This document shows, piece after piece, positions 10,508-61,157 of a stretch of 64,000 nt of DNA (position 1 is the first letter of the stretch; every line of letters begins with the position of its first letter). The stretch is from contig NZ_CP055157.1 of the NCBI RefSeq assembly GCF_013367775.1, positions 1,653,001-1,717,000 on the forward strand, written 5' to 3'. The translations under genes and the position numbers were made by a program. The notes beneath the pieces are model-generated. The model did not search any database. It was not told where the DNA came from and saw nothing but the letters and a program-made list of their open reading frames with translations. The DNA is from Microbulbifer sp. YPW1. GTDB taxonomy: Bacteria > Pseudomonadota > Gammaproteobacteria > Pseudomonadales > Cellvibrionaceae.

Positions 10508-10630
10508 GTGGGCGGTGAAGCACCGGGCAAAGCATTTCAAAATCGCTGTGAACCCATCCCTGGGCGCTCCGGCGCCGCCATCCATGGCGACGACGGTTTT
10601 GAAAAACTTTCCCCGGTACTTCCCCTTCGA
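10508..10630 (+). repeat. Cruciform intergenic element, copy A
   Basis: Ends are GTGGGCGG (10508) and CTTCGA (10630). The outer arms are imperfect: TTTCAAAATCG on the left pairs with CGGTTTTGAAA on the right, and CCGGG/CCCGG pair further out. Inner hairpin 1 is CCCA-TCCC-TGGG. Inner hairpin 2 is CGCCAT-CC-ATGGCG (10576-10589). It lies between two convergent genes and is the most degraded copy in the window. Confidence 0.8.
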
Positions 10631-10678
10631 TTCTGGGCACTGCGCATCGTTGTGAATAGTGCGCCTGAAAAAGAATTG

Positions 10679-11290
10679 TTACCCCTGCGCAGCCAGCGCA
10701 CTCTCCCTGAAGAATCCTGCAACTAGCACCGGCCACTGCTCAGCCCAGAATTCGGTGGGCTTGCGCTTGAAACCACTGCGCACGTACTGAACGATACGGC
10801 CCTCGGCGCTGGCCAGCAGCAGGTTGGCCGCGGCGGTCAGGGGGATGGCGGGGCGCAGTTGCTCGCGCAGTTCCGCTTCGCGCAGGATCTGCTTGAGCTG
10901 GGTTTCCAGACGGTCGAACAGCTGCAGAATACGGCCGTGCAGACGCTCGGTTTCACCGGTCAGTGCGTCGCCGGTGAGAAGGCGGGTGATGCCGGGGTTG
11001 CGTTCGCAGAAGGCGAGCAGCAGGTGCAGGATTTTCTGGCAGCGGGCCAGTGCGCTGGGCTCATCCTGCATGATGATCTTGATGCGGCTGAAGATGGTTT
11101 CTTCGATGAATTCGATCAGCCCTTCGAACATCTTGGATTTACTGGGGAAGTGGCGGTAGAGCGCCGCTTCGGAGAACCCCACCTCTTTGGCCAGTGCGGC
11201 GGTGGTGATACGGGCGCCGGGGCTGGCTTCCAGCATGTGGGCCAGGGCCTGCAGGATCTGCTGGCGCCGATTGATTTTTTCGCTGCTCAT
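10679..11290 (-). CDS. slmA: Nucleoid occlusion factor SlmA (TetR family)
   Basis: The 203-residue TetR-fold protein binds SlmA sites on DNA and blocks FtsZ assembly over the nucleoid. The N-terminal helix-turn-helix includes [21 protein letters not shown], followed by [16 protein letters not shown], a SlmA signature. The ligand/FtsZ-binding domain contains [24 protein letters not shown]. It is on the same strand as and 217 bases downstream of argB, with its own putative promoter between. Confidence 0.96.
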
Positions 11291-11404
11291 GAACTGCCTT
11301 TACCCGGAATATTCAGCCGGGAACTGATTTTGTTGTTGTACCGGTATGGTTCTCGTTGCGCGGCTTTTAAGCGTTTGTGTTGTGAGCGGGGTGTCAGAAG
11401 CCCG

Positions 11405-11433
11405 TTATAAGTCGCAGAAAAGCGCATTGTCCG
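11405..11433 (-). promoter_or_regulatory. Putative sigma-70 promoter for slmA
   Basis: Read on the minus strand, CGGACA and TTATAA are separated by 17 bases. The start site would be near 11398, giving a leader of about 108 bases. The -10 is strong and the -35 is a partial match. Confidence 0.45.
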
Positions 11434-11507
11434 GCGGCAGAATCGTAACCATTCGCCGCCGCGGCATCAATTGTTAGTGCCTGTTAACAACGGTAATGTG
11501 ATGGAAA

Positions 11508-12476
<969 letters not shown>

Positions 12477-12496
12477 TTACTGCTCGGATCGGTTGA

Positions 12497-14845
12497 TCAG
12501 CCCGGAATCTTCAGGGCGGGATCGATGGACTGAAGCTGGATCGCCACAATCTTGCGGATACGTTCCAGAGCCTGTTCATCGTCGGCTTCAAAGCGCAGGG
12601 TCAGTGCGGCGCCCGTATTGGACGCGCGCACCAGCCCCCAGCCGTCGGCGAATTCGATGCGCAGGCCATCGATGGTATTGAGATCGGCATCGCCAAAGTG
12701 CCCTTGTTCGCGCAGCTTGTCGATGAGGCCAAATTTCCTCTGCTCGGGTACCGGCAGCAGAATTTCCGGGGTGTTGACCATCTGTGGCAGGGAGTCGAGC
12801 AGCTCGTCGAGGGACTGTTCGCGCAGGGCCATGATTTCCAGCACCCGCGCCGCGGCGTAGATGCCGTCGTCGAAGCCGTACCAGCGATCCTTGATAAAGA
12901 TGTGCCCGGAGAGCTCGCCACCGAGCAGCGCGCCGGTCTCGAGCATTTTTTCTTTCATCGGCGCGTGGCCGGTTTTCCACATCACCGGGCGACCACCGTA
13001 CTGGGTGACGAGATCTGCCAGCGCGCGGGTGCTCTTCACATCGAACACGATATCCGAGCCCGGGTTGCGCGCGAGGATATCCCGCGCCAGCAGCATCACC
13101 AGTTGATCTGCCCATACGATCCGGCCGCTGGCGGTAACCAGGGTGACGCGATCGCCGTCGCCGTCGAGCGCGATGCCCAGGTCGGCGCCCTCGCCTTTGA
13201 CCGCGGTGATCAGATCCTGCAGGTTCTCCGGCCGCGATGGGTCCGGCGCGTGATTGGGGAAGTTGCCATCTACTTCGCAGTAGAGGGTTTCCACTTCACA
13301 GCCCAGTTGTTCAAACAGTTCCGGGGCGAGCTCGGAGGTGGCGCCGTTGCCGGCGTCGATGACGATACGCGGCTGGCCCGCGAGCGCCACGTCGTTGAAG
13401 ATCTCGTCGATGTAGGTTTCGCTAATATCCTGGCGGCTGTTGCTGGCCTCGCCGCTGGCGAACTTGCCGGACTGCATCAGCGTGCGCAATTTCTGCAGGC
13501 GATTGTCTGCCAGCGGGCGGCCGTTCATCACGATCTTGAAGCCGTTGTACTCAGCGGGGTTGTGGCTTGCCGTTACCATCACACCGCTGTTGGCATTTTT
13601 GCCCCGTGCGCAGGCGAAATAGAGTAACGGCGACGGCACCAGCCCCAGGTCCACGGCGTTACAGCCGCTCTCCAGAATGCCCTCGATCAGGCAGTCCCGC
13701 AGCAGCTCACTGCTGTTGCGTCCATCGCGCCCTACCAGCAGCAGTTTTTCCCCGGCTTGCAGTGCAATGGTGCCCAGCGCGCGGCCCAGCTGATAGGCAA
13801 AGGGCTCGTTGATTTCCTCCCCGGCAATGCCGCGGATATCGTACGCGCGGAACACATGTGCGGGGATTTCGGTGCTGGGTGTGCGCATCAACGCACCGGT
13901 TGCAGGAGCCTGCTTCGCAGGTGCGGCGGGTGCGGGTGCCGGCGCGGCGGCGACCGCAGCCAGGTGGTCATCGCTGGCCGGGGGCGGCGCATGCAGGTCT
14001 TCTTTGCGCAGGCCTTTTTTGGCTGGCGCGCGACCGCTGCGCGTAGATTTCTCCCAGGGGGCGGCATCGCCTTCGGCGGGAACCAGGGTGCGCAGCGCGA
14101 ACAGGGTTGCGAGCAGCCCGATCAGCGCCGCTGCGTAAATCCAGTAGGCCGCGATACTGTGATCCCCGGCAAAGGCTGTGGACGGGGTAAACACCAGCTG
14201 CAGATAGGAGCCGGCGATGGGTGCGCTGACCGCATCTCCACCGGCAGCGCTGCCGGGAGACTGCCAAAGTCCGCGCGCGGGGCCGTCCGGGAACTGTTGC
14301 ATGATCTGGAAACTGCCCGGATTCTGGTCGAGCTGGTCCAGGGCGCGCTGGAATACGCTGAATGGCTGGCTGATCAGCAGTGCGCCGTCGCTTTCCGCGC
14401 GGGCGCTGTACAGTTGCCACTGCTTGTCGCTGCCGCGCAGGAATTCAGGTTTTGGCTGCCCGTCTTCACGGCTGCGCTTCAGCAGGTCGACCAGCGCGAA
14501 ATCCAGTGGCGGATTACCGGTACCCACCTGCAGTTGATCGGGCGTAAAAAACTGTATTGAAGCCTGCGTCAGCGTGCGGCTCGGGGTGCCGGTTGCGGAT
14601 TTTCGGACACTCTTCAGGTCATCGAGCTTTTGCTGGCGTGCACTGAAAAAATCCCCAAGCTGCTGCGCATAGCCGTCCGCCAGTTGCTGCGCGGCGCTGC
14701 GCACGCTGTCGGCATTGTGTCCCTGGATAACATTGGTCATCAGCAGGTGCGCACCACCCAGCCACACCGCCGCTGCCAGCAGTGCGGGCAGCGTCAGGCC
14801 GCTGTGCCACAGGGGTTTTGTTTGCGATTGAATATGTGAAGCCAC
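12497..14845 (-). CDS. algC: Phosphomannomutase/phosphoglucomutase with N-terminal membrane module
   Basis: The 782-residue protein has two parts. Residues 1-255 form a membrane-anchored module: one helix at about 18-40, a periplasmic stretch of about 190 residues, and a second helix at about 232-252. A Pro/Ala linker (about 288-318) leads to a complete alpha-D-phosphohexomutase. This carries catalytic Ser427 in TASHNP, the metal loop DGDGDR, the sugar loop GELSGH and the phosphate site RASNTGAALTLRFE. The enzyme interconverts mannose and glucose 1- and 6-phosphates for exopolysaccharide and LPS. Long AlgC forms with this membrane module are known in pseudomonads. It sits between coaBC and argB, but dut, usually found before it in Pseudomonas, is absent. 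Confidence 0.95.
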   Translation of the reverse strand: MASHIQSQTKPLWHSGLTLPALLAAAVWLGGAHLLMTNVIQGHNADSVRSAAQQLADGYAQQLGDFFSARQQKLDDLKSVRKSATGTPSRTLTQASIQFFTPDQLQVGTGNPPLDFALVDLLKRSREDGQPKPEFLRGSDKQWQLYSARAESDGALLISQPFSVFQRALDQLDQNPGSFQIMQQFPDGPARGLWQSPGSAAGGDAVSAPIAGSYLQLVFTPSTAFAGDHSIAAYWIYAAALIGLLATLFALRTLVPAEGDAAPWEKSTRSGRAPAKKGLRKEDLHAPPPASDDHLAAVAAAPAPAPAAPAKQAPATGALMRTPSTEIPAHVFRAYDIRGIAGEEINEPFAYQLGRALGTIALQAGEKLLLVGRDGRNSSELLRDCLIEGILESGCNAVDLGLVPSPLLYFACARGKNANSGVMVTASHNPAEYNGFKIVMNGRPLADNRLQKLRTLMQSGKFASGEASNSRQDISETYIDEIFNDVALAGQPRIVIDAGNGATSELAPELFEQLGCEVETLYCEVDGNFPNHAPDPSRPENLQDLITAVKGEGADLGIALDGDGDRVTLVTASGRIVWADQLVMLLARDILARNPGSDIVFDVKSTRALADLVTQYGGRPVMWKTGHAPMKEKMLETGALLGGELSGHIFIKDRWYGFDDGIYAAARVLEIMALREQSLDELLDSLPQMVNTPEILLPVPEQRKFGLIDKLREQGHFGDADLNTIDGLRIEFADGWGLVRASNTGAALTLRFEADDEQALERIRKIVAIQLQSIDPALKIPG

Positions 14846-14945
14846 GACTTGTGCAGTCTCCCAGTCTTCCCAGACCAGCCCCCGGACCGGTTCAGTATTG
14901 TCTGAATCTTGTGTGTTGTTGTTTCTTGTTCGGCTTTTATAAGCG

Positions 14946-16166
14946 CTAAATATTGCTGGCGGGGAAAGCCCGCGCCGCGATCAGTGCAACCAGTTGCGTT
15001 GCCAGTTCAGATTTCAGTGCCGCCGGCAATGGCTGCTCACCATCGCGATCGATAACCGTCACCTGATTGCGATCACTGTTGAAGCCCCCTGCAGGATCGC
15101 TCACATCGTTGGCGATGATCATGTCCAGATTCTTGCGCGCCAGCTTGCCCTTGGCGTGCTCGGCCACCTTTTCGGTTTCCGCGGCAAAGCCGACTACAAA
15201 CGGGCGCTTGTGCTCGCGTCCGGCAATGGCGGCGACGATGTCCGGGTTTTTCACCAGCTGCAGCACATCGCTGTCATTGCCATCTTCTTTCTTGATCTTC
15301 TGCGCGGCGACCACTGCCGGGCGGAAGTCCACCACCGCAGCGGCGGCGATAAACAGGTCGCAGTTGTCTGCGGCGGTTTCCGCAGCCCGATGCATATCCT
15401 CGGTACTGACCACATCCACGCGCGTGACCCCGGCGGGGGTATCGAGGCGCACCGGTCCGGCAATCAGCGTGACGTCAGCGCCGGCGCGCGCGGCGGCAGC
15501 GGCAATGGCAAAGCCCATCTTGCCGGAACTGTGGTTGCTCAGGTAGCGCACCGGATCCAGTGCCTCGCGGGTGGGGCCGGCGGTGATGGTGACCTTCTTG
15601 CCTGCCAGCACCGGTTCCGGGGCGATGGTATTGATCAGCCCCTCGACGATATCCAGCGGCTCGAGCATACGCCCGGGGCCCACGTCGCCGCAGGCCTGGC
15701 TACCGGCATCCGGGCCAAGCAGCGTGGCGCCGCGATCGCGCAGGGTTTGCGCGTTGTCCTGGGTCGCGCTGTTGCGCCACATCGCCTGGTTCATAGCCGG
15801 GGCCAGCACCAGGGGTGCCTCGCTGGCCAGGCACAGGGTCGTCAGCAGATCGTCGGCCATGCCCGCGGCGAGCTTGGCCATCACACTGGCACTGGCGGGG
15901 GCGATCAGGATTACGTCCGCCCATTTGGCCAGCTCGATATGCCCCATTGCGGCCTCGGCAGCCGGGTCCAGCAGGTCGGTATGCACCGGGTTACCGGACA
16001 GTGCCTGGAAAGTGAGCGGCTGTACGAACGCGCGGGCACCAGCGCTCATGACCACGCGCACGGTGGCGCCGCGATCCTGGAGCCTGCGTACCAGGTCGGC
16101 GCTTTTATAGGCGGCGATGCCGCCGGTAACACCGAGCAGTATCCGTTTATCGGCCAGAGAGGGCAT
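14946..16166 (-). CDS. coaBC: Bifunctional phosphopantothenoylcysteine decarboxylase / phosphopantothenate-cysteine ligase
   Basis: This enzyme carries out two steps of coenzyme A synthesis. In 406 residues, the N-terminal flavoprotein decarboxylase shows LLGVTGGIAAYKSADLVRRL, the active-site PAMNQAMW and GSQACGDVGPGRM. The C-terminal ligase shows VTITAGPTREALDPVRYLSN(HSSGKMG). The start at 16166 matches the family; 23 additional upstream codons are unlikely to be translated. It is divergent from radC, as in E. coli (dfp/radC). Confidence 0.96.
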   Translation of the reverse strand: MPSLADKRILLGVTGGIAAYKSADLVRRLQDRGATVRVVMSAGARAFVQPLTFQALSGNPVHTDLLDPAAEAAMGHIELAKWADVILIAPASASVMAKLAAGMADDLLTTLCLASEAPLVLAPAMNQAMWRNSATQDNAQTLRDRGATLLGPDAGSQACGDVGPGRMLEPLDIVEGLINTIAPEPVLAGKKVTITAGPTREALDPVRYLSNHSSGKMGFAIAAAAARAGADVTLIAGPVRLDTPAGVTRVDVVSTEDMHRAAETAADNCDLFIAAAAVVDFRPAVVAAQKIKKEDGNDSDVLQLVKNPDIVAAIAGREHKRPFVVGFAAETEKVAEHAKGKLARKNLDMIIANDVSDPAGGFNSDRNQVTVIDRDGEQPLPAALKSELATQLVALIAARAFPASNI

Positions 16167-16307
16167 ATTCTGTGGTTCCGGAACTCTGAGAACGCGTAAG
16201 ATTACCATTTTAGCGCCTGTGGCAATACGGCCCATGGGCAGCAGTAATTAGCGCGCAATGGAAGCGAGCATTCACTTTGACTATGTGGTTCTGCCCAGGG
16301 AGGGGAT

Positions 16308-16982
16308 ATGGCGATTACGGATTGGCCGGCAGAGGAGCGGCCGCGGGAAAAGCTGCTGGCCAGGGGCGCGCAGGCGTTGTCCGATGCCGAGCTGCTGGCA
16401 ATCTTCCTGCGCACCGGCCTGCCCGGGGTTTCCGCGGTGGATCTGGCGCGCCAGTTGCTGGCGGATTTTGGCGGCCTGCGACCATTGCTGGAGGCCGATC
16501 GCAAGGCATTCTGTGCGGGCAAGGGGCTCGGCGATGCGAAGTTTGTGCAGCTGCAGGCGGTGCTGGAGATGGGCCGTCGTCACCTGGCGGAAGGCCTGCA
16601 GCGCTCGGATGCCCTCACCAGTCCCCAGGCGGTGCGCGACTATTTATCCGCGCAATTGCGCCACCGCACCCGCGAGGTCTTCTGTTGCCTGTTCCTGGAC
16701 AGTCAGCACCGGGTGATTGCCTATGAAGAGCTGTTTGAGGGCACCCTGAACGCGGCCAGCGTGTATCCGCGGGAGGTGGTGCAGGCGGCGCTGGCCAAAG
16801 GCGCAGCGGCTGTGATCCTTGCCCACAACCACCCTTCCGGGGTCAGCGAGCCCAGCCAGGCGGATATCCACATCACCGGCCGGCTGAAGGACGCCCTGGC
16901 GCTGGTGGATATCCGGGTGCTGGACCATCTGATTGTCGGTGAAGGGGGTGGTTGTTCCTTCGCCGAGCGAGGACTGCTTTAA
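16308..16982 (+). CDS. radC: RadC family JAB/MPN domain protein
   Basis: The 224-residue protein has an N-terminal helix-hairpin-helix-like domain ([21 protein letters not shown]) and a C-terminal JAMM metalloprotease-like domain. The latter includes the zinc-ligand motif [14 protein letters not shown] and the upstream glutamate in PREVV. Its historical link to DNA repair is doubtful and no biochemical role is settled. It is followed by rpmB-rpmG-mutM as in E. coli, but a repeat element and a separate promoter lie between. Confidence 0.96.
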
Positions 16983-17018
16983 TCCGGGCTGCTGGTGCAG
17001 GTGGGTGTAGCGGGCGCG

Positions 17019-17137
17019 GTGGCGGCCAAGTGCCGGGGCGGGCTTTCGAAATCGCTGTGAACCCATCCCTGGGCGCTCCGGCGGCGACTTCCTGTCGCCG
17101 ACGGTTTCGAAAGCCCGCCCCGGCACCTGACCTTCTC
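17019..17137 (+). repeat. Cruciform intergenic element, copy B
   Basis: GTGGCGG begins at 17019 and a CCTTC end lies at 17131. The outer arms, 17030-17051 and 17105-17126, are perfectly complementary over 22 bp and contain the self-complementary TTTCGAAA. Inner hairpin 1 is CCCA-TCCC-TGGG. Hairpin 2 is CGGCGAC-TTCCT-GTCGCCG. It lies between radC and the rpmB promoter. Confidence 0.92.
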
Positions 17138-17241
17138 ATCGCGGTTCTAGCCCCCGCGGCCTGCTTTCGGGCGCCATCAAGTTGGTTTTTCCGCCCTTGA
17201 CCCAAAGTGGCCGCCCAGACAGCAAAAAAACTGGTCAAAAC

Positions 17242-17270
17242 TTGCCCCACCCAGGGTGTTCTGGTATAAA
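17242..17270 (+). promoter_or_regulatory. Sigma-70 promoter of rpmB-rpmG
   Basis: TTGCCC (17242-17247) and TATAAA (17265-17270) are separated by exactly 17 bases and followed by a GC-rich discriminator (ACGCCGC). That combination is typical of growth-rate-controlled ribosomal promoters. The leader to rpmB is about 115 bases. Confidence 0.82.
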
Positions 17271-17391
17271 ACGCCGCTCTTTGCGGCCGGGCCAGATTCT
17301 GTACAGATCCCGCGGTCGCGCTGGATACCGAATTTAGTCCCTGCCCCGCCCCCGAGCTGAGGGCACGAGAGTTATTGAAGAGGCCAATCAG

Positions 17392-17816: not shown

Positions 17817-17837
17817 TTGATTGCCTTGCTAGTTCGC

Positions 17838-17865: not shown

Positions 17866-17907
17866 GTGTCTGGAAAAAACTACTGTACGTCGACGCTAAG
17901 GCTTCGA

Positions 17908-18015
17908 TAGTGTCTCCCCTTTGCCAGACCTTCAAAAACAGGATGTTTTTGCAGAGCCCCCATGGATGGGTTCACGGCGTGTCTGGCGAAGGGGAGACAC
18001 TAGCGGAGCCGCCAC
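17908..18015 (-). repeat. Cruciform intergenic element, copy C
   Basis: This copy is in the reverse orientation, ending CCGCCAC at 18015. Arms 17908-17929 and 17981-18002 pair over 22 bp with one G-T position. Hairpin 2 is CAAAAAC-AGGAT-GTTTTTG; hairpin 1 is CCCAT-GG-ATGGG. It ends 34-47 bases before the mutM start. It is shorter than the other copies because its far end is not recognisable. Confidence 0.88.
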
Positions 18016-18049
18016 TCAATCAGCTAGTGGCGCCCCGGAACCTATTAAG

Positions 18050-24135: not shown

Positions 24136-25422
24136 ATGATTTTTGATTTCCTGCGCAAGAAGAAGCCCGAGGCTGAAGAGTCCACAGAAGAGAAGGTGGA
24201 TAACCCCCTGGCACCGGAATCGCCAGAGCCTGAGGCGGAGCCAGAATTCGAGATCCCGGATAACCTGCTGGCGGATACCGCGGAGGCCGAGGGCGCTGCG
24301 GAGACTGCCCCTGCGCAGGTAGAGGTCGAACCGGAGGAGACTGCGGAAAAGGCTGAAGCGGATAAGGCTGAAGAAAAACTGTCGGTAGAGGAAGCGCCGG
24401 AGGCGGCGTTTGACGCAACTGCCGAGGTTGCCGCTGCCACAGATACTCCGGCGGAGCCCGCACCCCAGCCAACCCCACAGGAAAAGCCCAAGAAAGAGGG
24501 CTTCTTTGCGCGTATCCGCCGCGGCCTGGCGCGCACCAGCAGCCAGTTTGCCGAGGGCATGGGCAACCTGTTCCTGGGCGCCAAGGAAATCGACGAAGAT
24601 CTGATGGAGGAGCTGGAGACCCAGCTGTTGATGGCGGATGTGGGCGTGGATGCCACCACCGAGATCATCGACCGCCTCACCGATCGCGTGTCCCGCCGGG
24701 AGCTGTCCAATGGTGAAGCGCTTTACACGGCGCTGCAGGAAGAGCTGGCCGGCCTGCTGGACAAGGTGGAGGCACCGCTGGATATCGATACTGCCAGGCA
24801 GCCATTCGTGATTCTGGTGGTGGGCGTCAACGGTGTGGGCAAGACCACTACCATCGGCAAGCTGGCGCACCGCTATCTGAACGAGGGCAAGTCTGTGATG
24901 CTGGCTGCGGGGGATACTTTCCGCGCGGCGGCGGTGGAGCAGCTGCAGGTTTGGGGACAGCGCCACAATGTGCCGGTGGTGGCCCAGCACACCGGTGCCG
25001 ACAGTGCCTCGGTTATTTTTGATGCGATCCAGTCCGCCCAGTCCCGCGGTGTGGATGTGGTGATTGCGGATACCGCCGGGCGTCTGCACAACAAGTCGAA
25101 CCTGATGGAGGAGTTGTCCAAGGTGCGCCGGGTGATGGGCAAGCTGGACGATTCCGCGCCCCACGAGGTGCTGTTGGTGCTTGACGCGGGTACTGGTCAG
25201 AATGCGCTTTCCCAGGCGGAGACCTTCCGCGATTCGGCCGGGGTGACCGGTCTGGTACTGACCAAGCTGGACGGCACTGCCAAGGGTGGGGTGATTTTCG
25301 CGCTGGCGCAGAAGCTGGGGATTCCGGTACGCTTTATCGGCGTTGGGGAGCAGGCGGAAGACCTGCAGCCTTTTGTGGCTAAAGACTTTGTGGCGGCGCT
25401 GTTTAATCGGGCTCAGGGCTGA
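24136..25422 (+). CDS. ftsY: Signal recognition particle receptor FtsY
   Basis: This 428-residue SRP receptor GTPase targets membrane proteins to the translocon. The N-terminal A domain (about 1-120) is strongly acidic, rich in Glu, Ala and Pro. The NG domain begins near KKEGFFARIRRGLARTSSQF. GTPase motifs are GVNGVGKTTTIGKLA (G1), DTAGRLHNK (G3) and TKLDGTAKGG (G4/G5). In most gammaproteobacteria ftsE follows closely; here a 257-base gap with a repeat element separates them. Confidence 0.98.
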   Translation: MIFDFLRKKKPEAEESTEEKVDNPLAPESPEPEAEPEFEIPDNLLADTAEAEGAAETAPAQVEVEPEETAEKAEADKAEEKLSVEEAPEAAFDATAEVAAATDTPAEPAPQPTPQEKPKKEGFFARIRRGLARTSSQFAEGMGNLFLGAKEIDEDLMEELETQLLMADVGVDATTEIIDRLTDRVSRRELSNGEALYTALQEELAGLLDKVEAPLDIDTARQPFVILVVGVNGVGKTTTIGKLAHRYLNEGKSVMLAAGDTFRAAAVEQLQVWGQRHNVPVVAQHTGADSASVIFDAIQSAQSRGVDVVIADTAGRLHNKSNLMEELSKVRRVMGKLDDSAPHEVLLVLDAGTGQNALSQAETFRDSAGVTGLVLTKLDGTAKGGVIFALAQKLGIPVRFIGVGEQAEDLQPFVAKDFVAALFNRAQG

Positions 25423-25497
25423 TTAACCGGGCGCAGGGCTAATTAGCCGAAAGCTGGGCTGAATTGCCCCGGCTTTTTAGGTTTATGAACTCGGACG

Positions 25498-25621
25498 CGA
25501 AGGTGACGATGCCGGGTGCCCCCTTGTGAGACCGTATGCGGCCTGGATGGCCGCATCCGAGCCCCCAGGGATGGGTTTACGGCGTGTCTCACAAGGGGGC
25601 ACCCGGTAGCGGCACCGCCAC
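25498..25621 (-). repeat. Cruciform intergenic element, copy D
   Basis: Reverse orientation: CGAAGG at 25498 and CCGCCAC ending at 25621. Arms 25512-25532 and 25586-25606 are a perfect 21-bp match ending in GAGAC/GTCTC. Hairpin 2 is ATGCGGCC-TGGAT-GGCCGCAT; hairpin 1 is CCCA-GGGA-TGGG. It sits between ftsY and ftsE and ends 58 bases before the ftsE start. Confidence 0.93.
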
Positions 25622-25679
25622 AGGGGCCTGAAAAATGCTTGTGCATTCTCCCCAGAACTAAAACAACAAAAATGCGCTC

Positions 25680-28633: not shown

Positions 28634-28680
28634 CGTATGTGGTCCCGGGCTTCTGTGGTATTTGCTTTGGAGCTGGTTCG

Positions 28681-28802
28681 GTGGCGGGGAGGCACCGGGT
28701 GCTGCTTTTTGAAACCGCTGTGAATACATCCATGTACGCTGCGTCGGCGACATCCCTGTCGCCGACGCTTTCAAAAAGCAGCACCCGGCACCTCCCCTTC
28801 GA
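28681..28802 (+). repeat. Cruciform intergenic element, copy E
   Basis: GTGGCGG at 28681 and CCTTCGA ending at 28802 bound this copy. Arms 28686-28714 and 28769-28797 pair over 29 bp with a symmetrical two-base mismatch next to CCGGG. Hairpin 1 is TACAT-CC-ATGTA. Hairpin 2 (28741-28768) is a perfect 12-bp stem around TCCC. It ends 42 bases before the DUF423 gene and is matched by inverted copy F on the other side. Confidence 0.93.
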
Positions 28803-28844
28803 TTTGATCTCTGTACTTCGTAAGCTCGAAAGAAAGGCATAACG

Positions 28845-29222: not shown

Positions 29223-29259
29223 CCACCAACATAGGGTGGTAAAAACTTAGAAGCATGAT

Positions 29260-29381
29260 TCGAAGGCCAAGTGCCGGGTATGGGGTTTCAGAAGCGTCGG
29301 CGACAGGGACGTCGCCGACGCAGCGTACAGGGATGTATTTACAGCGGTTCTGAAACCCCATACCCGGTGCTTGGCCGCCAC
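29260..29381 (-). repeat. Cruciform intergenic element, copy F
   Basis: Reverse orientation: TCGAAGG at 29260 and CCGCCAC ending at 29381. Arms 29265-29293 and 29348-29376 pair over 29 bp with the same two-base mismatch position as copy E. Hairpin 2 (29294-29321) is the copy E stem inverted. Hairpin 1 is TACA-GGGA-TGTA. It ends 52 bases before trmB. Confidence 0.93.
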
Positions 29382-29433
29382 AGCACAAGCCACGAAGCAC
29401 CGAAGAACAGTGCTCCGGGCCTAGAGGTAAAAG

Positions 29434-38975: not shown

Positions 38976-38999
38976 GGCGGCACTCTTAGAATAAGTACT

Positions 39000-39122
39000 G
39001 TGGCGGTACCGCAACCGGGTGCTGGTGCGTGAGACACGCCGTAAACCCATCCCCGGGGGCTCTGCAAAAACATCCTGTTTTTGAAGGTCTCACGCACCAG
39101 CACCCGGCAGCGGCACCTTCGA
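39000..39122 (+). repeat. Cruciform intergenic element, copy G
   Basis: GTGGCGG at 39000 and CCTTCGA ending at 39122. Arms 39015-39035 and 39087-39107 are a perfect 21-bp match ending GAGAC/GTCTC. Hairpin 2 is CAAAAACA-TCC-TGTTTTTG, the same stem as copy C inverted. Hairpin 1 carries CCCATCCCCGGGG. It lies between the gshA stop and the acpH start. Confidence 0.93.
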
Positions 39123-39128
39123 TTCCGG

Positions 39129-41344: not shown

Positions 41345-41457
41345 GCGTGGGGACATCTTTGCTCAGACATGGGGGCAGTTTAGCGGCGGTAGGGGGGAGG
41401 CTCAAGGATCGGGAGGCGAAGTGATTATTTGCCGTCCGGTTCCACCGAAATGCGGGT

Positions 41458-41580
41458 CGAAGGTGGCGATGGCCAGTGCAGACTTGTGAGACCTTCTAAA
41501 ACAGGGATGTTTTAGAAGAGCCCCCAGGGATGGGTTCACGGCGTGTCTCACAAGTCTGCACTGGCTGGCGCCACCGCCAG
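41458..41580 (-). repeat. Cruciform intergenic element, copy H
   Basis: Reverse orientation: TCGAAGG at 41458 and CCGCCAG ending at 41580. Arms 41472-41492 and 41545-41565 are a perfect 21-bp match ending GAGAC/GTCTC. A second outer pair GGTGGCG/CGCCACC encloses them. Hairpin 2 is an 11-bp stem CTTCTAAAACA around GGGA, the copy J stem inverted. Hairpin 1 is CCCA-GGGA-TGGG. Confidence 0.94.
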
Positions 41581-41598
41581 CGGGATTTCAATCCACCG

Positions 41599-49368: not shown

Positions 49369-49406
49369 GTAAGAACCCACTTGCTGAAGAAGTAATTTTC
49401 TACGAA

Positions 49407-49528
49407 TTGAAGGGCGGGCGCCGGGGAACAGGTTTCAGGACTGTCGGAAACAGGGATGTTTCCGACAGAGCGTACAGGGATGTATTCACAGCGGTCCTGA
49501 AACCTGTTTCCCGGTGACCGCCCGCCAC
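49407..49528 (-). repeat. Cruciform intergenic element, copy I
   Basis: Reverse orientation: TTGAAGG at 49407 and CCGCCAC ending at 49528. Arms 49421-49440 and 49495-49514 pair over 20 bp with one mismatch, enclosed by CGGGCG/CGCCCG. Hairpin 2 (49441-49468) is a perfect 12-bp stem around GGGA. Hairpin 1 is TACA-GGGA-TGTA. It lies within the hslV-hslU operon and ends 60 bases before hslU. Confidence 0.93.
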
Positions 49529-49588
49529 CGCTCCAGCTTTAGAACGTAAAAGACTGGAACAAAGCGACAAAGAATCCGAGTAAAGACC

Positions 49589-53515: not shown

Positions 53516-55171
53516 ATGCGTACCATCATTCTGGCAATCACTACCGCACTGTTCGGGTCCGGTGCGGTTTCCGCCGAGCCGGAAAATCTCGGCCGCCTGT
53601 ACCTTTCCAACCCGGCAGCGGTGACGCCACCGCAGTGTTATACCAAGACCGAAAATGAAAACGCGCCGGCGAGTAATCCCTGTTACGTCTGCCACACCGA
53701 TAGCCGCGCGCCCAACTTTACCAACGACCTCGACCTGCAATTGCTGTACGACTTCGCGGAACCCGCGCGCACCAACCGCTGGCACAACCTGTTCAAGGAC
53801 CGATCCGAGTATCTGGCTGAAGTCAGCGACGAGCAGATTCTCGGCTACGTGCGCGAAAGTAATTACCGCGCGAAGGATGGCAGTGTGCCCTTGCGGGAAA
53901 AATTGCGCGAAAACCTGCCGGCGCACTGGGATGGCAATGGCAACGGCCGCTGGGATGGCTATGTGCCCGATGTGCAGTTCAATTTTGACAGTGCCGGTTT
54001 TGACCGCGATGCCGACGGCGGGTACAGCGGCTGGCGCGCGCTGGCCTACACCCCTTTCCCGGGGACTTTCTTTCCCACCAACGGATCCACCGACGATGTG
54101 CTGATCCGCCTGCCGGCCATGTATCAAAACAATGAGCAGGGCGAGTTTGATGTCGAGGTGTATCGGATCAACCTGGCGATTGTAGAGGCGCTGATCAAGC
54201 GCGCGGATATTGCCATCGACCCGGTAGACGAGGAAAAGCTCAAGGTGGACCTGGACAAAAACGGCGAGCTGGCTACCGCTACACAGATTACCTATGACTG
54301 GGCGCCGCTGGAGCAGCGCCATATGTCCTATGTGGGCGAGGCGCGGCTGGCACAGCAGCGCAAAGAGGCACCTCTGTCTGCCGGTTCCTATCCGCTGGGC
54401 ACCGAATTCCTGCACAGCGTGCGCTACCTGGATGTGGACACCAATGGTGAAGTCTCTATGGCTGCACGCATGAAAGAGCTGCGTTACGCGCGCAAGGTGC
54501 GCTGGGTCACTTATTTCCAGCATCGCGAACTGGCTGCAGACGAACTCAAGGACGCGCACGATTTTCCCGACCGCTTGGAGCCGGTGATCGGGGATATCGA
54601 GCGCGGTGTCAGCAATCGTCGCGGCTGGCGCTACAGCGGATTTATCGAGGATCGTCACGGCGGATTGCGACCGCAGTCCTACGAAGAGCTGGCCACCTGT
54701 AGCGGCTGTCACGGCGCCATTGGCGCCAATGTGGACGGCAGCTTCGCCATGACCCGCAAACTGGATGCGGGCAAGAGTTTCCAGCGCGGCTGGTACCACT
54801 GGGACCAGAAATCCCTTGCCGGCACGCCGGAGCCCCTGCGAGGGGATGGGCAGGGCGAGTATGCCTACTACCTCAAGCAGGTGGGCAATGCGGACGAGTA
54901 CCGCTCCAACGGCGAGGTGCGTGCGCGCTTCTTCGATAGCGAGGGCGCACTCAAGAGCGCGATGCTCGACCGCCTGGCGAAGGATATCAACGTGTTGATC
55001 ATGCCCTCACCGCGCCGTGCCCTCGACCTGAACAAGGCCTACCGCGCAATTGTGCAGGAACAGAGTTTCCGCGAAGGCCGCGATGCGGTGTTGAGCCCGC
55101 GCGACAACCTGCTGCGCGAGGTTGCCGAGGGACAGGAGACCGGTGTGCAGCGGGCGTCGTCGTATTTTTGA
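53516..55171 (+). CDS. Exported diheme c-type cytochrome of unknown function
   Basis: The 551-residue protein has a signal peptide (about 1-20, ending VSA). Covalent heme motifs are CYVCH (56-60) and CSGCH (395-399). About 330 residues separate them, so it is not a tandem cytochrome. Two acidic loops, WDGNGNGRWDGY (138-149) and FDRDADGGYSGW (162-173), look like calcium sites. The family is not recognised. The start at 53516 is chosen over GTG at 53507. It lies between the two phosphatase genes, but a terminator separates it from the first. Confidence 0.75.
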   Translation: MRTIILAITTALFGSGAVSAEPENLGRLYLSNPAAVTPPQCYTKTENENAPASNPCYVCHTDSRAPNFTNDLDLQLLYDFAEPARTNRWHNLFKDRSEYLAEVSDEQILGYVRESNYRAKDGSVPLREKLRENLPAHWDGNGNGRWDGYVPDVQFNFDSAGFDRDADGGYSGWRALAYTPFPGTFFPTNGSTDDVLIRLPAMYQNNEQGEFDVEVYRINLAIVEALIKRADIAIDPVDEEKLKVDLDKNGELATATQITYDWAPLEQRHMSYVGEARLAQQRKEAPLSAGSYPLGTEFLHSVRYLDVDTNGEVSMAARMKELRYARKVRWVTYFQHRELAADELKDAHDFPDRLEPVIGDIERGVSNRRGWRYSGFIEDRHGGLRPQSYEELATCSGCHGAIGANVDGSFAMTRKLDAGKSFQRGWYHWDQKSLAGTPEPLRGDGQGEYAYYLKQVGNADEYRSNGEVRARFFDSEGALKSAMLDRLAKDINVLIMPSPRRALDLNKAYRAIVQEQSFREGRDAVLSPRDNLLREVAEGQETGVQRASSYF

Positions 55172-55246
55172 TGCAGGCGTCCGCCGGCGCACGGAGGCGC
55201 TGGGATTCTTGCATCATTTGTCGTGGGCGGCGATCGGTCGCCGCCC

Positions 55247-55280
55247 CGGTCACGGTTCTGTAATATTCCCCCTCTTTAAT
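55247..55280 (+). promoter_or_regulatory. Pho box and -10 of the PhoA-type phosphatase
   Basis: CGGTCAC (55247-55253), GGTT, CTGTAAT (55258-55264) is a 7-4-7 PhoB repeat. TTTAAT (55275-55280) follows after exactly 10 bases, as in the first Pho promoter. The leader is about 25 bases. Confidence 0.75.
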
Positions 55281-55311
55281 TGGCGCGTTTGTTCTCTCAG
55301 GGGTATTCAGA

Positions 55312-56913
55312 ATGATCCAAAAAACGCTCTCCGCGGTGCTCGCCGCGCTCTCGACCGCAGCCATTCTCGGCGGTTCTCTCGCCTACAGTTCGGAGGGCGT
55401 TGCTGCCGCCAAGGATTCCGGCAATGACGCCGTGCAGTTGCAGGGCAGCCAGCGTTCCAGCCACTGGTTCAATGAGGGGCAAGCAGCCCTGCGGCAGGCT
55501 ATCTCGCAGCCGGTCAACAACAAGCGCGGCGCGGCAAGAAACGTCATCCTGTTTGTGGGCGACGGCATGGGTATTTCTACCGTCACCGCCGCGCGTATTC
55601 TTGCCGGCCAGCAGCAGGGTCTGGACGGTGAGGAATACCGGCTCAGCTTCGAAAAAATGCCCTTTGCCGGCCTGATCAAAACCTACAACACCAACCAGCA
55701 GACCCCGGACTCCGCCGGTACTGCTACTGCGATGCTGACCGGTGTGAAAACCAAGGCTGGATTTATCGGTGTCGATGAAGCGGTGGATCGCGGCGATTGC
55801 CCTGCGAGCCTCGAGCATGGTCTGACGACTGCACTGGAGCTCGCCGAGCAGCAAGGCAAAAGCACCGGCCTGGTGAGCACCGCTCGCATTACTCACGCCA
55901 CCCCGGCTGCGGCCTACGCCAAGGTGCCCGAGCGAGGCTGGGAGTTCCAGGCACCGGAAGGCTGCCGGGATATTGCCGCGCAGTTGGTCGCCCTGCCTGC
56001 GGGCGACGGTGTTGATGTCGTACTGGGTGGCGGTCGCCGCAGCTTTCTGCCGCAAGAAGTCACGGACCGGGAAGGTAAAAGCGGCAAACGTACCGACGGC
56101 CGCAATCTGGTGAGCGAGTGGAAGCAGCGTTACGGTGACAGCGCGGCCTATATCGAGGATCAGGAGGGATTCGACGGCCTGGATCTGGCGGCCACTGACA
56201 AGCTGCTGGGCCTGTTTGAAAGCTCGCATATGCGCTACGAAGCGGACCGCAAAAACGATGTGGCCGGCGAGCCCGCCCTGCACGAGATGACCGCCAAGGC
56301 CATCGACCTGCTGGAGAAAAACGACAACGGTTACTTCATGCTGGTGGAAGGTGGACGCATTGACCACGGCCACCACGCGGGCAACGCCTACAACGCCTTG
56401 AATGATGCGGTGGAAATGGCGCGCGCGGTGCAGGTGGCGATGGAAAAAACCAGTGCGGAGGACACACTGATCATCGTCACCGCCGATCACAGCCATGTGA
56501 TGACCATCGCCGGATATCCGACCCGCGGCAACCCGATCCTGGGCAAAGTGGTGGGCAATGACAGCCGTGGCCAGGCCGAGGACACGCCGTCACTGGCCGC
56601 CGATGGCAAGCCCTACACCACTATCGGTTACACCACCGGCCTCGGCCACGCCCACTATGGCGACGAGACCGATGCCGATGTGCGCTACAGCGACCCGATC
56701 GACAGCGGACGCAAGGACCTGTCCAAACTGGATACCACCGCGCCTGGCTATCACCAGGACTCCCTCGTGCCTCTGGGCTCGGAAACCCACGGCGGCGAGG
56801 ATGTCGGTATCTGGGCGCGCGGCCCGGGCGCACACCTGTTGAGCGGCACCAATGAGCAGAGCTTTATTTTCCATGTGATGGCCCACTCCGGAGGCCTGTT
56901 GGGGGAAGACTGA
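55312..56913 (+). CDS. Alkaline phosphatase (PhoA family)
   Basis: The 533-residue exported phosphomonoesterase has a signal peptide (about 1-33). The metal aspartate is Asp84 in FVGDGMG, and nucleophile Ser134 lies in TPDSAGTATAMLTG. Further zinc/magnesium sites are MLVEGGRIDHGHHAGN, VTADHSH and a late SETHGGEDVGIWARGPGAH. Length and motifs fit the larger marine PhoA form. It has its own Pho box. It likely cleaves phosphate esters in the periplasm under phosphate limitation. Confidence 0.95.
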   Translation: MIQKTLSAVLAALSTAAILGGSLAYSSEGVAAAKDSGNDAVQLQGSQRSSHWFNEGQAALRQAISQPVNNKRGAARNVILFVGDGMGISTVTAARILAGQQQGLDGEEYRLSFEKMPFAGLIKTYNTNQQTPDSAGTATAMLTGVKTKAGFIGVDEAVDRGDCPASLEHGLTTALELAEQQGKSTGLVSTARITHATPAAAYAKVPERGWEFQAPEGCRDIAAQLVALPAGDGVDVVLGGGRRSFLPQEVTDREGKSGKRTDGRNLVSEWKQRYGDSAAYIEDQEGFDGLDLAATDKLLGLFESSHMRYEADRKNDVAGEPALHEMTAKAIDLLEKNDNGYFMLVEGGRIDHGHHAGNAYNALNDAVEMARAVQVAMEKTSAEDTLIIVTADHSHVMTIAGYPTRGNPILGKVVGNDSRGQAEDTPSLAADGKPYTTIGYTTGLGHAHYGDETDADVRYSDPIDSGRKDLSKLDTTAPGYHQDSLVPLGSETHGGEDVGIWARGPGAHLLSGTNEQSFIFHVMAHSGGLLGED

Positions 56914-56986
56914 GCCTGTAATAGATCTGTGGGAACAGCGGAATTAAAAATACTGAGGAGAATCTGCGAGACGGGATTCGGATAAC

Positions 56987-57040
56987 AAAAAAAGCCGCAT
57001 CGTTGGATGCGGCTTTCGAAGCGGGAGCCTTGCGGCTCCC
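56987..57040 (-). terminator. Terminator of the TonB receptor gene (two hairpins)
   Basis: On the minus strand, GGGAGCC...GGCTCCC (57023-57040) comes first, then AAAGCCGCATC...GATGCGGCTTT (56991-57016) followed by a U7 run. The second hairpin may also terminate the PhoA-type gene from the left. Confidence 0.85.
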
Positions 57041-57070
57041 CGGTTCTTGTTGTTTCTCTGAGAGAGATTT

Positions 57071-59929
57071 TTAGAAGGTGTAGTTCACACCCATGTAGAA
57101 ACTGCGACCCAAAGTGTCGTACATACCGGAGCCACCACCGGTACCGGAAAGGTACGCGGGGGGATCCTGATCTTCGATGTTGTTGATACCACCGTAAACT
57201 TCGAAGGAGTCCTGATACAGGTATGCTGCACGCAGGTCGTTGTAGCGGATCACACCGGTGTTACTCGGAGCTGCGCTTTCCGGCTGAGTCAGGCCAATGT
57301 CGTACAGGGCCATGTCATCCAGGTAGCGATGCGCCCAGTTCACGGACAGGTCACCGTAGCGGTAGGTGACGTTCATGTTGTACGCGTTGGTGGGATCACC
57401 CAGTTCGCCGTCGATGCGGTCTGCACTGTCAGGCTCGTTCTGGAAGGAGTAGTCGTCGCGTTCCAGCAGGCGAGTACCCTGCAGGCTCAGGGTCAGGTTG
57501 CCCAGCTCGGATTTGAACAGGTCGGCCAGCGCCATTTCGTAACGCACTTCGTAGTCAATACCGCGAGCAGTGAGCTTGGATGCGTTCAGGGCCGAGCTGG
57601 TCAGGGAAACCAGGTCGCCGTTGGCATCGCGCTGGATGTTGCCACAGAACTGGTTGTCGATGGAGGAAGCGTCAACACACTTGTCCAGAATCGTCTGGCC
57701 ACCGTAGTAAGAGATCGCATCTTCGATTTCGATGTCCCAGTAGTCTGCGGTAACGGTCAGGCCTTCAGCGAAGCGCGGGGTGAGCACCACACCGAAGGTC
57801 AGGGTAGTCGCAGTCTCTTCCTGAAGATTTTCGTTACCACCGCTGAAGCCCGGCAGAGTCGGACCTTCGTTCCATGGGGACTGGTAGTCTGCGGCCAGGC
57901 CCAGGGCGGCACAGTTGGCTGCACGCTGAGTCGGGTTCGGAGCGTAGGCTACCTCGTCGGCATCACACGGATCGTCAATATTGAAGAAGTTCTGGCCCAG
58001 CGGTGCGAACAGCTCGTCGATGTTCGGAGCACGTACTGCCTGAGAGGAGGTAGCGCGGACACGAACGTCGTCGATCACAGTCCAGTCCAGTCCGGCCTTC
58101 CAGGCACCGGTGCTACCGATGGTGGAGTAGTCAGCGGCGCGGTATGCGGTGTCGAATACCAGGCTCTGGACACCCGGGAGGTCGGACAGCAGCGGAGCAG
58201 ACAGTTCTACGTAGGCTTCCGATACGTCGTATTCACCGTCAGTGGTCGCGAGCGCGTTCATGAAGGTAGCGCCGCTTTTGATGATTTCATCAAAGTCGAC
58301 AAAACTGGTTTCTTCGCGGTATTCGAAGCCGCCGACTACGGACAGCGGGCCCGCAGGAAGGTCGAACAGGTCACCGCCGATAAAACCGGAAGCGACGGTT
58401 TGAGTCATCTCTTCCACTGAACCGGTGTTATCCAGCATTACCCAGTCGATAGCTTCCTGGGAGTTCTGGTTTTCGCCGAACAGGTCAAGCGGCTGACAGC
58501 CAGCTGCGCGGGCGTCGGCGTCGGCACAGACAATCTGTCCATCGACTTCGATGGCGTCGATGGCCTGGGCGAAGCGCTCGTTATGGCGGTTGTTCAGGTA
58601 GAAGATGTCGGCGTCGTACTGGCCGTAAACGAGGCTGGCCTCGTAGTTCCAGCGGCTACCGATGTCGCCCTTTACGCCCACTACGTAGCGCTGGGTTTCA
58701 CGCTCGGCCAGATCGCCGCGGTAACCCAGGTCGGAATGCATGCGGTACATGCCGAAAGCGGGAATGCCGGCAGCTACCAGCTCGTCGGACAGATCTTTGT
58801 CCAGGAACGGGTTGGTGGAGGAGTAGCCATTGTAGCTGAAGCTCGCCTGACCCCAGCTCTCGGCTTCGTGGCTGACGTATTTGGCTTCGGCAAACAGGCG
58901 CGTGGAGTCGTTCAGGTCGAAGTGACCCTTCACGTACACATTGTTGGTATCCATGCTCGGATACATCTGGTACTGGCCAATCCAGCGATAGCCGTCACCA
59001 CCGGTACAGCGGCCGGCGGAATCACAGTAGTCACCGGGGATAACCGGGCGCGCGGAGCCGTCTTCGTCAAAGGTGTAGTCACCGAAAGGCGCGGGCAACC
59101 AGGCGATACCGGCGTCACTCAGGATGGGCAGGGTGTAGTTCTGCACGATGAAACGATCCGGGATGCCATCTTCGGGGCCGGTGTCGTTGGGGTTGCGCAG
59201 GGTGCCGTAGCCTTTGGTGATCCAGTCGCGATCGGTGCCGTACACATCGCCGCGGCTGGTAAGGGAGACACTACCAGCGACGTTTGCGCGGCCGTCGAAA
59301 AAGTTTTGGCCGAAGGTAAAGGAAGCTTCAGTAGTTTCCGCGCCACCGTTTGTGGTATCGCTGGCGAAGGCGCTGATCTTCACGCCTTCGAAGTCATCTT
59401 TCATGATGAAGTTAACTACACCGGTTACAGCGTCCGCACCGTAGATCGCGGAAGCACCGCCGGTGATCACGTCGACGCGCTCAATCAGGTCTTCCGGGAT
59501 AGTGTTTACGTCAACCGCAGAAGTACCTACAGAGGAGGCGATGTGACGACGGCCGTCCTGCAGTACCAGGGTGCGGGAAGTGCCGAGACCGCGCAGGTCC
59601 AGCAGGTTCAGGCCCACGGTGCCGATAAAGCGACCGGAGTTCTGACCGGAAAAGGTGGAGCGCAACGCAGGCAATTCGTTGAGGAAGTCACCCAGGTTGG
59701 TTTCACCACTGAGGCTGATATCTTCCGCGGTCAGGGTGGTGACCGGGGTGGGGCTCATGGAATTGGGACGCGCGATACGCGAGCCGGTCACGGTGACCTG
59801 TTCAATGGCGCCATCGTCGATTTTGGAAGCATCTACTGCTTTGGTGTCTTCCTGAGCGAATGCGGGAGTAACACCAACCGCCGCCAAAATGGCGCCGCGG
59901 ATGGCCATGGAGAGCGTGTTGCCTTTCAT
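57071..59929 (-). CDS. TonB-dependent outer-membrane receptor
   Basis: The 952-residue receptor has a signal peptide (about 1-25). The plug domain shows IEQVTVTGSRI, TPVTTLTAEDI, DLRGLGTSRTLVLQDGRR, VDVITGGASAIYGADAVTG and VVNFIMK. A large 22-strand barrel ends NNIEDQDPP...YDTLGRSFYMGVNYTF with terminal Phe. It belongs to the marine/Xanthomonas-like type that imports complex substrates. Convergent to the PhoA gene, it may import organic phosphorus compounds or carbohydrates. No Pho box is near its start. Confidence 0.93.
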   Translation of the reverse strand: MKGNTLSMAIRGAILAAVGVTPAFAQEDTKAVDASKIDDGAIEQVTVTGSRIARPNSMSPTPVTTLTAEDISLSGETNLGDFLNELPALRSTFSGQNSGRFIGTVGLNLLDLRGLGTSRTLVLQDGRRHIASSVGTSAVDVNTIPEDLIERVDVITGGASAIYGADAVTGVVNFIMKDDFEGVKISAFASDTTNGGAETTEASFTFGQNFFDGRANVAGSVSLTSRGDVYGTDRDWITKGYGTLRNPNDTGPEDGIPDRFIVQNYTLPILSDAGIAWLPAPFGDYTFDEDGSARPVIPGDYCDSAGRCTGGDGYRWIGQYQMYPSMDTNNVYVKGHFDLNDSTRLFAEAKYVSHEAESWGQASFSYNGYSSTNPFLDKDLSDELVAAGIPAFGMYRMHSDLGYRGDLAERETQRYVVGVKGDIGSRWNYEASLVYGQYDADIFYLNNRHNERFAQAIDAIEVDGQIVCADADARAAGCQPLDLFGENQNSQEAIDWVMLDNTGSVEEMTQTVASGFIGGDLFDLPAGPLSVVGGFEYREETSFVDFDEIIKSGATFMNALATTDGEYDVSEAYVELSAPLLSDLPGVQSLVFDTAYRAADYSTIGSTGAWKAGLDWTVIDDVRVRATSSQAVRAPNIDELFAPLGQNFFNIDDPCDADEVAYAPNPTQRAANCAALGLAADYQSPWNEGPTLPGFSGGNENLQEETATTLTFGVVLTPRFAEGLTVTADYWDIEIEDAISYYGGQTILDKCVDASSIDNQFCGNIQRDANGDLVSLTSSALNASKLTARGIDYEVRYEMALADLFKSELGNLTLSLQGTRLLERDDYSFQNEPDSADRIDGELGDPTNAYNMNVTYRYGDLSVNWAHRYLDDMALYDIGLTQPESAAPSNTGVIRYNDLRAAYLYQDSFEVYGGINNIEDQDPPAYLSGTGGGSGMYDTLGRSFYMGVNYTF

Positions 59930-59947
59930 ATTTTTTATTCCCCCCCC
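59930..59947 (-). promoter_or_regulatory. G8 tract in the TonB receptor leader
   Basis: Eight consecutive guanines on the minus strand (59940-59947) end ten bases before the ATG and replace a normal Shine-Dalgarno sequence. Length changes in the tract would change its spacing from the start codon. Confidence 0.45.
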
Positions 59948-60271
59948 AGAGGGTTTCTCGTTCTTGGTCAGAAATTCGGCGTTTAGAGTTTTGTGCCGTA
60001 TTCCAGTAACGATTGGGAGGAAAGTTCCCTCATGGAAATTATTAACAAGATTAAATATTTTTTGTTTCAGATGAAACCTAATGAGATATTGTGCAAGGAG
60101 GGCTAAAAAATGACATTAATGCTAAAGTTGAGCCTGACTGACGGCTGAGTCACCCTGCTGTGGCGAGCCTTTCGTTGGCCAATGTGCTCGACGCAAAAAG
60201 GTTCCTGCATGTCCCATTCCAATTCGGCCCATGTACAATACCGCCCTCAAATCTGGCTCAGCAGGCATACG
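59948..60271. other. Intergenic region between the TonB receptor and ubiE
   Basis: These 324 bases include an AT-rich stretch (60041-60120), unusual for the window, that probably holds the receptor promoter. A single Pho-box half-site (ATGACAT at 60110) lacks a partner. An ATG at 60209 could extend ubiE by 21 residues. Confidence 0.45.
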
Positions 60272-61021
60272 ATGACGGAACGCAAGACGACCCACTTTGG
60301 CTACCAGGAAGTACCGGTGGAAGAGAAGGCCGGTCGGGTGGCGGATGTTTTCCACTCGGTGGCGGCCCGCTACGATGTGATGAACGACCTGATGTCCGGC
60401 GGTGTGCACCGGTTGTGGAAGCGTTTCACCATCGAGCTGTCCGCGGCGCGACCGGGGCAGACGATCCTGGATATTGCCGGTGGCACCGGTGACCTGACGG
60501 CGCGCTTTTCGCGTATTGTCGGCCCTACCGGCAAGGTGGTGCTTGCCGATATCAATGCGTCGATGCTGAAGGTGGGCCGCGATCGCCTGCTGGACCGCGG
60601 TATTGCGGGCAATGTGGAGACGGTACAGGCGGATGCCCAGTACCTGCCCTTCCCGGACAATACCTTTGATTGCATTACCATTGCCTTTGGCCTGCGCAAT
60701 GTGACAGATAAGGATCTGGCGCTGCGCTCAATGCTGCGGGTGTTGAAGCCCGGTGGTCGGCTGCTGGTGCTGGAGTTTTCCAAGCCGCAGTCCAAGCTGC
60801 TGGAGAAGGTCTACGATCAGTACTCTTTCCGCCTGCTGCCTTTTATGGGCAAACTGGTGGCGGACGATGCGGACAGTTACCGTTATCTCGCCGAGAGTAT
60901 CCGCATGCATCCGGATCAGGAGACCCTGAAAGACATGATGGGCGAGGCCGGTTTCGTGGATTGCGAATTCCACAACATGACCGGTGGCATTGTGGCTTTG
61001 CACAAGGGTATCAAACCCTAG
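60272..61021 (+). CDS. ubiE: Ubiquinone/menaquinone C-methyltransferase
   Basis: This 249-residue SAM-dependent enzyme methylates the quinone ring. Its motifs are [56 protein letters not shown] and [12 protein letters not shown]. The start matches the family ([12 protein letters not shown]). ubiJ and ubiB follow, forming the conserved ubiE-J-B cluster, with repeat J inserted after this gene. Confidence 0.97.
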
Positions 61022-61036
61022 CTCTTTTCTCTGTCT

Positions 61037-61157
61037 GTGGCGGTCCGAGCGGCGTGAACCCCTCGCGAGACACGCCGTGAACCCATCCCTGGGGGCTCTT
61101 CTAAAACATCCCTGTTTTAGAAGGTCTCGCGAGGGGTTCACGCCGCCCAGACCTTCG
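61037..61157 (+). repeat. Cruciform intergenic element, copy J
   Basis: GTGGCGG at 61037 and CCTTCG ending at 61157. Arms 61051-61071 and 61124-61144 are a perfect 21-bp match ending GAGAC/GTCTC, enclosed by GGTC/GACC. Hairpin 1 is CCCA-TCCC-TGGG; hairpin 2 is the copy H stem inverted. It lies inside the ubiE-ubiJ interval and ends 38 bases before ubiJ. Confidence 0.94.

Follow-up and report, generated by a model that had tools for sequence, protein, structure and literature searches.

The window analysed here, a stretch of 64,000 nucleotides from the Microbulbifer sp. YPW1 genome, contains ten scattered copies of a palindromic element, which raises the question of what such a repeat preserves: a DNA structure, or an RNA made from one strand and recognized by a particular partner. 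The repeat is real, widespread, conserved in structure and of the YPAL type. The reading developed below is that each copy is a portable, two-site candidate CsrA-binding RNA element, with CsrA binding the best explanation of what stays fixed; this is argued from sequence, and we give it a probability of roughly 0.6.

All ten copies described in an earlier note on this DNA are present at the places given there. They are listed with window coordinates, ends taken from covariance model matches, and the strand of the RNA carrying GGA in its loops, followed by the orientation in which the copy was first read; gene names derive from Pfam matches or recognition by eye.

Copy A, 10507..10632, minus strand (first read as plus).
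Copy B, 17018..17139, minus strand (first read as plus).
Copy C, 17894..18016, plus strand (first read as minus), with neighbours that we take, by eye, to be rpmB/rpmG and mutM.
Copy D, 25496..25622, plus strand (first read as minus), in the gap between an FtsY-like and an FtsE-like gene.
Copy E, 28680..28804, minus strand (first read as plus), between a terminator-like hairpin 3' of a sigma-70-type (RpoH-like) gene and a DUF423 gene.
Copy F, 29259..29382, plus strand (first read as minus), in the gap between the DUF423 gene and a TrmB-like gene.
Copy G, 38999..39123, minus strand (first read as plus).
Copy H, 41456..41581, plus strand (first read as minus).
Copy I, 49405..49529, plus strand (first read as minus).
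Copy J, 61036..61159, minus strand (first read as plus).

Copy C, previously described as shorter at about 108 bp, measures 123 bp. The ends are conserved more loosely than had been claimed, with CCTTCT in copy B and CCTTAG in copy C. The outer arms were said to differ completely; most of the freedom does lie in their inner part, but words such as ACCGGGT and TTTTC are common to the arms. Flanking sequence is weakly conserved for about 20 nt on each side.

The YPW1 genome is a single contig of 4,578,595 bases, and the nearest relative of its trmB product, in a comparison that may omit records of this genome itself, is from M. mangrovi (99% protein identity). The covariance model that the earlier note called for was built from the ten window copies (R1; 126 positions, 38 pairs) and run on this genome, giving 138 matches at E ≤ 0.1. 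From these, 123 were kept and 15 dropped as opposite-strand echoes of better matches; 116 copies, the ten window copies included, pass E 1e-9 in the genome stretches searched with R1. With no more than a single mismatch allowed, the core pattern is found at 93 places in the genome and the reversed control at 1.

Selection on structure, as the earlier note had suggested, is borne out by covariation of the stems in the 116 copies. Because the alignment is fitted to the model and relatedness inflates counts, the following are not read as probabilities: 94.5% of cells pair, against a shuffled mean of 68.2% (no shuffle of 500 comes up to this); both sides are changed in 1157 cells, against 344.6 (0 of 500 shuffles reach this); the covariation score is 0.713, against 0.234; and, as a less telling measure, 34 of 38 pairs show change on both sides, against a shuffled mean of 30.6 (7 of 500 shuffles reach this). 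Sliding the partner by a single column lowers pairing to 45-47%.

The family, which the earlier note could not name, can be named as YPAL/RU-2 type, because the printed RU-2/YPAL carries the core with 0 mismatches to the pattern. In its form in PMC2759123 it carries CAAGGATG and CATGGATG; it shares with the Microbulbifer element two CANGGANG loops, a long stem and an intergenic location. It differs in that its outer arms vary less; and R1, unlike YPAL/RU-2 known from Yersinia, has matches in many gammaproteobacterial families. The R1 model has 126 positions, as against about 168 bp for YPAL, for which passages of PMC2229807 give target duplications of 3-26 bp, at or beside dyads. Here, gaps without the element are too diverged to place its ends for comparison with those duplications or as precise empty sites. 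A match to an already named repeat, which the earlier note held would count against its proposal, is thus found in part. Rfam gives nothing at gathering score in the window. Elsewhere, a molybdenum cofactor riboswitch match lies above gathering score at locus L017, 2639-2778.

The nearest Rfam entry is the Yersinia sRNA Ysr224 (RF02770), whose model aligns over the element core, on the strand opposite to the GGA strand, and has matches at several R1 places. Matches below threshold coincide with 3 of 10 window copies and, in 3 of 20 additional loci, with elements. The gathering score (70 bits) is reached in 0 of 369 genomes, the best scores being 37.6 bits in this genome and 51.3 bits in the class sample. 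Portions of two sources place Ysr224 among the most prevalent sRNAs (PMC9029176) and attribute to Y. ruckeri several copies that are not expressed alike (PMC12112432); within those portions it is described neither as a repeat family nor as a CsrA site. REP/BIME sequences with RAYT are likewise intergenic palindromic repeats and differ from the element in size, REPs being given as 20-40 bp in the source passage, and in their link to a Y1 transposase; attC sites were set aside as a further comparison. The literature search found no link of CsrA to YPAL, repeat elements or extragenic palindromes, and nothing to the point on Microbulbifer repeats, covariation of intergenic repeats or RsmA with Microbulbifer.

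The identity of the selected strand is reflected in the mismatches. As some R1 columns look out of register in part of the copies, each left arm was paired directly with its own right arm, and 8 of the 123 copies were left out (5 without a core, 3 without a long stem). In the 115 counted, outer-arm mismatches comprise 171 A.C, 15 G.T and 120 others. Many of these stem from few consensus positions, and the count was therefore limited to positions 2-21 from the core, where inner-arm mismatches comprise 36 A.C against 5 G.T (p 8e-7), and 33 others. In a second Microbulbifer species (G002; 47 of 49 copies), the corresponding numbers are 10, 0 and 12. Counted by distinct sequence context, A.C exceeds G.T by 35 v 5 in YPW1 and 10 v 0 in G002. 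The excess runs the same way on both genome strands and in both genome halves (9 v 1, 11 v 0, 6 v 3, 10 v 1), and in all four gene contexts.

An A.C on the strand first read is a G.U on the other, so that the simplest reading is selection on RNA folding of the other strand, whose RNA is the more stable in 86 of 116 copies. Selection in these two Microbulbifer genomes appears to act on RNA from the complement of the strand first read. The earlier note had left the choice between RNA and a DNA cruciform; the strand-biased mismatches point to RNA, and a cruciform would give no such bias. In distant copies the bias is weak and not significant (A.C 21, G.T 13, p 0.23; 36 of 36 copies, which are the best hits of a model with a preference for G.U on the other strand). 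Hairpin stems, with few mismatches, show no clear bias (hairpin 2, A.C 5 v G.T 3; hairpin 1, 2 v 2). A mirrored model, R2 (32 pairs), gave lower scores than R1 (38 pairs), which is not a clean strand test.

On the GGA strand, the loop of hairpin 1 is CANGGANG, and variation in the YPW1 copies is almost confined to its two N. Across 118 copies the columns read C117 A116 N G117 G118 A117 N G117, with 0-2 copies lacking any given fixed letter, and the two N are G84/T33/C1 and T105/C12/A1. The loop is near-identical in 47 G002 copies, where one letter differs once, and its fixed letters are identical in the 36 distant copies, although the model that picked these favours such loops. In 108 of the 118 copies GGA is exposed by hairpin 2 as well, in a loop of the ANGGAN or AGGAN type. 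Fold predictions for the ten window copies leave two GGA fully unpaired per copy, with any other GGA wholly or partly in stems.

Passages of two sources (PMC7652899, PMC3791407) give: the CsrA SELEX consensus RUACARGGAUGU, mostly in six-base loops; contact of RsmE with an ANGGAN loop whose N is variable; and bridging by a CsrA dimer of sites separated by 10-63 nt, best at more than 18. Judged by its letters, the putative recognition loop of hairpin 1 matches the CsrA/RsmE consensus. One form of it, ACAGGGATGT, present in 24 of 118 copies, fits the SELEX consensus. Two features of CsrA/RsmA-binding RNAs are found in the element: an ANGGAN loop closed by a pair, and at least two sites 10-63 nt apart. 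The GGA-GGA spacing is 22-24 nt in the 108 YPW1 copies with a scored hairpin 2, and 23-24 nt in 44 of 47 G002 copies and 33 of 36 distant copies. A bulge beside hairpin 1 is also conserved, which CsrA binding leaves unexplained. RNAs of the CsrB/RsmZ type resemble the element in presenting GGA within hairpin loops, with several sites per RNA; unlike them, the element has two sites per copy, and its copies are scattered over the genome. The Rfam models of CsrB and RsmX/Y/Z have no match in the window.

Two kinds of insert are also seen in the hairpins. An insert of about 14 nt, AGCTAGGCGCCCCC, recurs at one and the same position within hairpin 1 in copies that are unrelated, including those at genome positions 131234, 769326, 1076379 and 2063558 and at loci L067 and L207. 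A longer GC-rich insert lies in the hairpin 2 loop of two copies (locus L071, 9206-9358 and 5965-6126).

If CsrA binding is what preserves the element, the mechanism likely involves: folding of the GGA-strand RNA, with a long outer stem that bears two hairpins at its end; presentation by each hairpin of an ANGGAN (or AGGAN-type) loop, as recognized by CsrA/RsmA proteins; and capture by the protein. As the two GGA are 22-24 nt apart, one CsrA dimer could hold both loops. The outer stem would only need to be double-stranded, so its letters may drift by paired changes, with block-wise exchange between copies apparently adding to this. Those loop letters with which CsrA would make contact stay fixed. 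We infer that the RNA is made and that CsrA binds it, with the following outcome: each transcribed copy would form a bivalent CsrA site near a gene 3' end, and the copies together would amount to a CsrB dispersed over the genome, acting as a decoy, and/or to sites that affect RNA stability locally.

The distribution of CsrA itself does not follow that of the element. A PF02599 match occurs in 193 of 229 sampled gammaproteobacterial genomes, in 36 of the 41 that bear elements versus 157 of the 188 others. PF02599 has no match in the YPW1 sequence, where the alaS-lysC stretch runs into Ns at the place at which G263 has csrA, and absence is not judgeable. In Microbulbifer, CsrA is above cut-off in 42 of 48 genomes. 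Six element-poor species (G003, G004, G007, G009, G010, G014) have 7-23 CsrA matches, two other element-poor ones (G011 and G018) have 2, and the element-rich G006 has 10. Across 18 congeners, element count against CsrA matches gives a Spearman coefficient of -0.41 (p 0.09), which is not significant, ignores kinship and uses some counts that are lower bounds (at least) or include weak matches. Some Microbulbifer genomes contain many CsrA-like genes, with up to 28 matches at E ≤ 1, and in one case three lie within about 2.1 kb (G276 C1:637900-656900; L243 15850-17937).

The position of the element in the genome bears on a different function. By crude gene calling, the 3' end of a gene is adjacent to 114 of 122 elements, at a median of 37 nt and within 70 nt for 93 of them; one further copy, which overlaps a predicted gene, was left out. 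In the same stretches, 6 of 101 gaps with an element are divergent, versus 46 of 173 without. Of 26 pairs of neighbouring elements less than 1 kb apart, 22 have their right ends facing each other and 19 are separated by 45-85 nt. YPAL is reported to sit close after stop codons.

The element could thus be a gene 3'-end RNA element that stabilizes or trims mRNA by its long stem, its loops being read by another protein or by nothing, and the CsrA resemblance being incidental. The typical position, mostly 10-60 nt after stop codons, suits such a role, and the strand bias at the RNA level fits it. A review, in the passage concerned, also notes that YPAL possibly affects the stability of upstream transcripts. 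Left unexplained are the fixed CANGGANG loops beside free stems, the fixed spacing of the two loops, and the copies antisense to their neighbours, and we regard a 3'-end stability role without CsrA as rather unlikely. Relative to the upstream gene, the GGA strand has the sense direction in 76 of the 122 copies and not in 46, and the strand bias is independent of this; CsrA binding, for its part, leaves the source of RNA at the 46 unexplained.

Beyond this genome, R1 has matches at E ≤ 1e-4 in 41 of 229 sampled gammaproteobacterial genomes, YPW1 included, and in 36 of 196 genera; per-genome counts in this class sample rest on the best 15 candidates each. Both loops are present by a strict pattern in 11 of 19 distant loci and by a looser criterion in 33 of 36 distant copies. 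In G206 (8 copies) and G117 (7), outer arms mostly differ from copy to copy and still pair. Searches of plasmids with copy E and of phages with copy J, one copy each, gave no match.

At the sites of copies E and F, the element is present in the same orientation in 17 of 20 loci each, YPW1 included, the other 3 being unscored. Mean inner-arm identity between genomes is 0.70 (E) and 0.66 (F) versus 0.48 between random sites, the first two values being lowered because insert-bearing copies (1 at E, 3 at F) were misplaced in parsing. At each site 14 of 17 copies pair at 25-28 of 29 positions. Between some genomes the differences are single base pairs, each compensated; between others (L193 versus L203) the arms are retained and the hairpin block is what differs. 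In L207 and L211 the left and right arms are, by eye, unmatched at site E. We infer that blocks have been exchanged between copies. In the ftsY-ftsE gap (window 25420-25679), three other Microbulbifer loci carry the element in the opposite orientation; L068 and L070 keep only its right end, and L069 seems to hold another repeat.

Movement as DNA, with the hairpins as cruciform recognition sites for a transposase or recombinase, would account for the patchy copy number in the genus, which runs from 0 to at least 121, and for four anchored loci (L073, L074, L077, L217) in which site E is a gap of 110-160 nt lacking the element. Copies in G093 (L188-L192) have, by eye, terminal inverted repeats of about 22 bp, and host inverted repeats appear to enclose some of them. 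Against it stand the strand-biased mismatches and the copies at sites E and F, which stay put in 17 genomes each. The RAYT/IS200-like mobilizer proposed in the earlier note is not supported: across 29 genomes the number of Y1_Tnp matches fails to track that of the elements, as in G012 (50 elements, 0 Y1) and G002 (112 elements, 1 Y1 below cut-off). Nor was a longer partner element with the G093 terminal repeat seen, no inverted pair of it lying 0.5-5 kb apart in that genome (88% complete). DNA-level mobility as the reason for the conserved hairpins is accordingly improbable to a marked degree. Insertion into host dyads was rejected for the YPW1 copies, as the flanks of 119 of them show a mean complementarity of 5.35, not above the 5.44 of mismatched flanks. 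Derivation of the outer arms by copying of the target was considered and not adopted.

Neutral upkeep of the palindrome, by template switching that copies one arm onto the other and so yields complementarity without selection, would suit arms that are near perfect and widely varying, and the lack of a significant A.C versus G.T difference in distant copies, but it predicts equal A.C and G.T where 36 v 5 and 10 v 0 are observed, and is barely credible.

Taken together with its spread, the candidate CsrA-binding element permits a larger proposal, which we advance tentatively and consider more apt to fail than to hold: that the repeat with R1 matches in about one-sixth of the gammaproteobacterial genomes sampled works as a portable CsrA-binding RNA with two sites, and that genomes with 50-120 copies hold a distributed, self-spreading and diversifying CsrA decoy, the scattered counterpart of CsrB. 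Wobble asymmetry can reveal which strand of a palindrome is selected. Should the CsrA reading be true, a function would be found for bacterial repeats of a puzzling class; three subjects, namely YPAL repeats, the orphan sRNA Ysr224 and CsrA targets, would be joined; and CsrA regulation would depend on the collected copy number of a genome.
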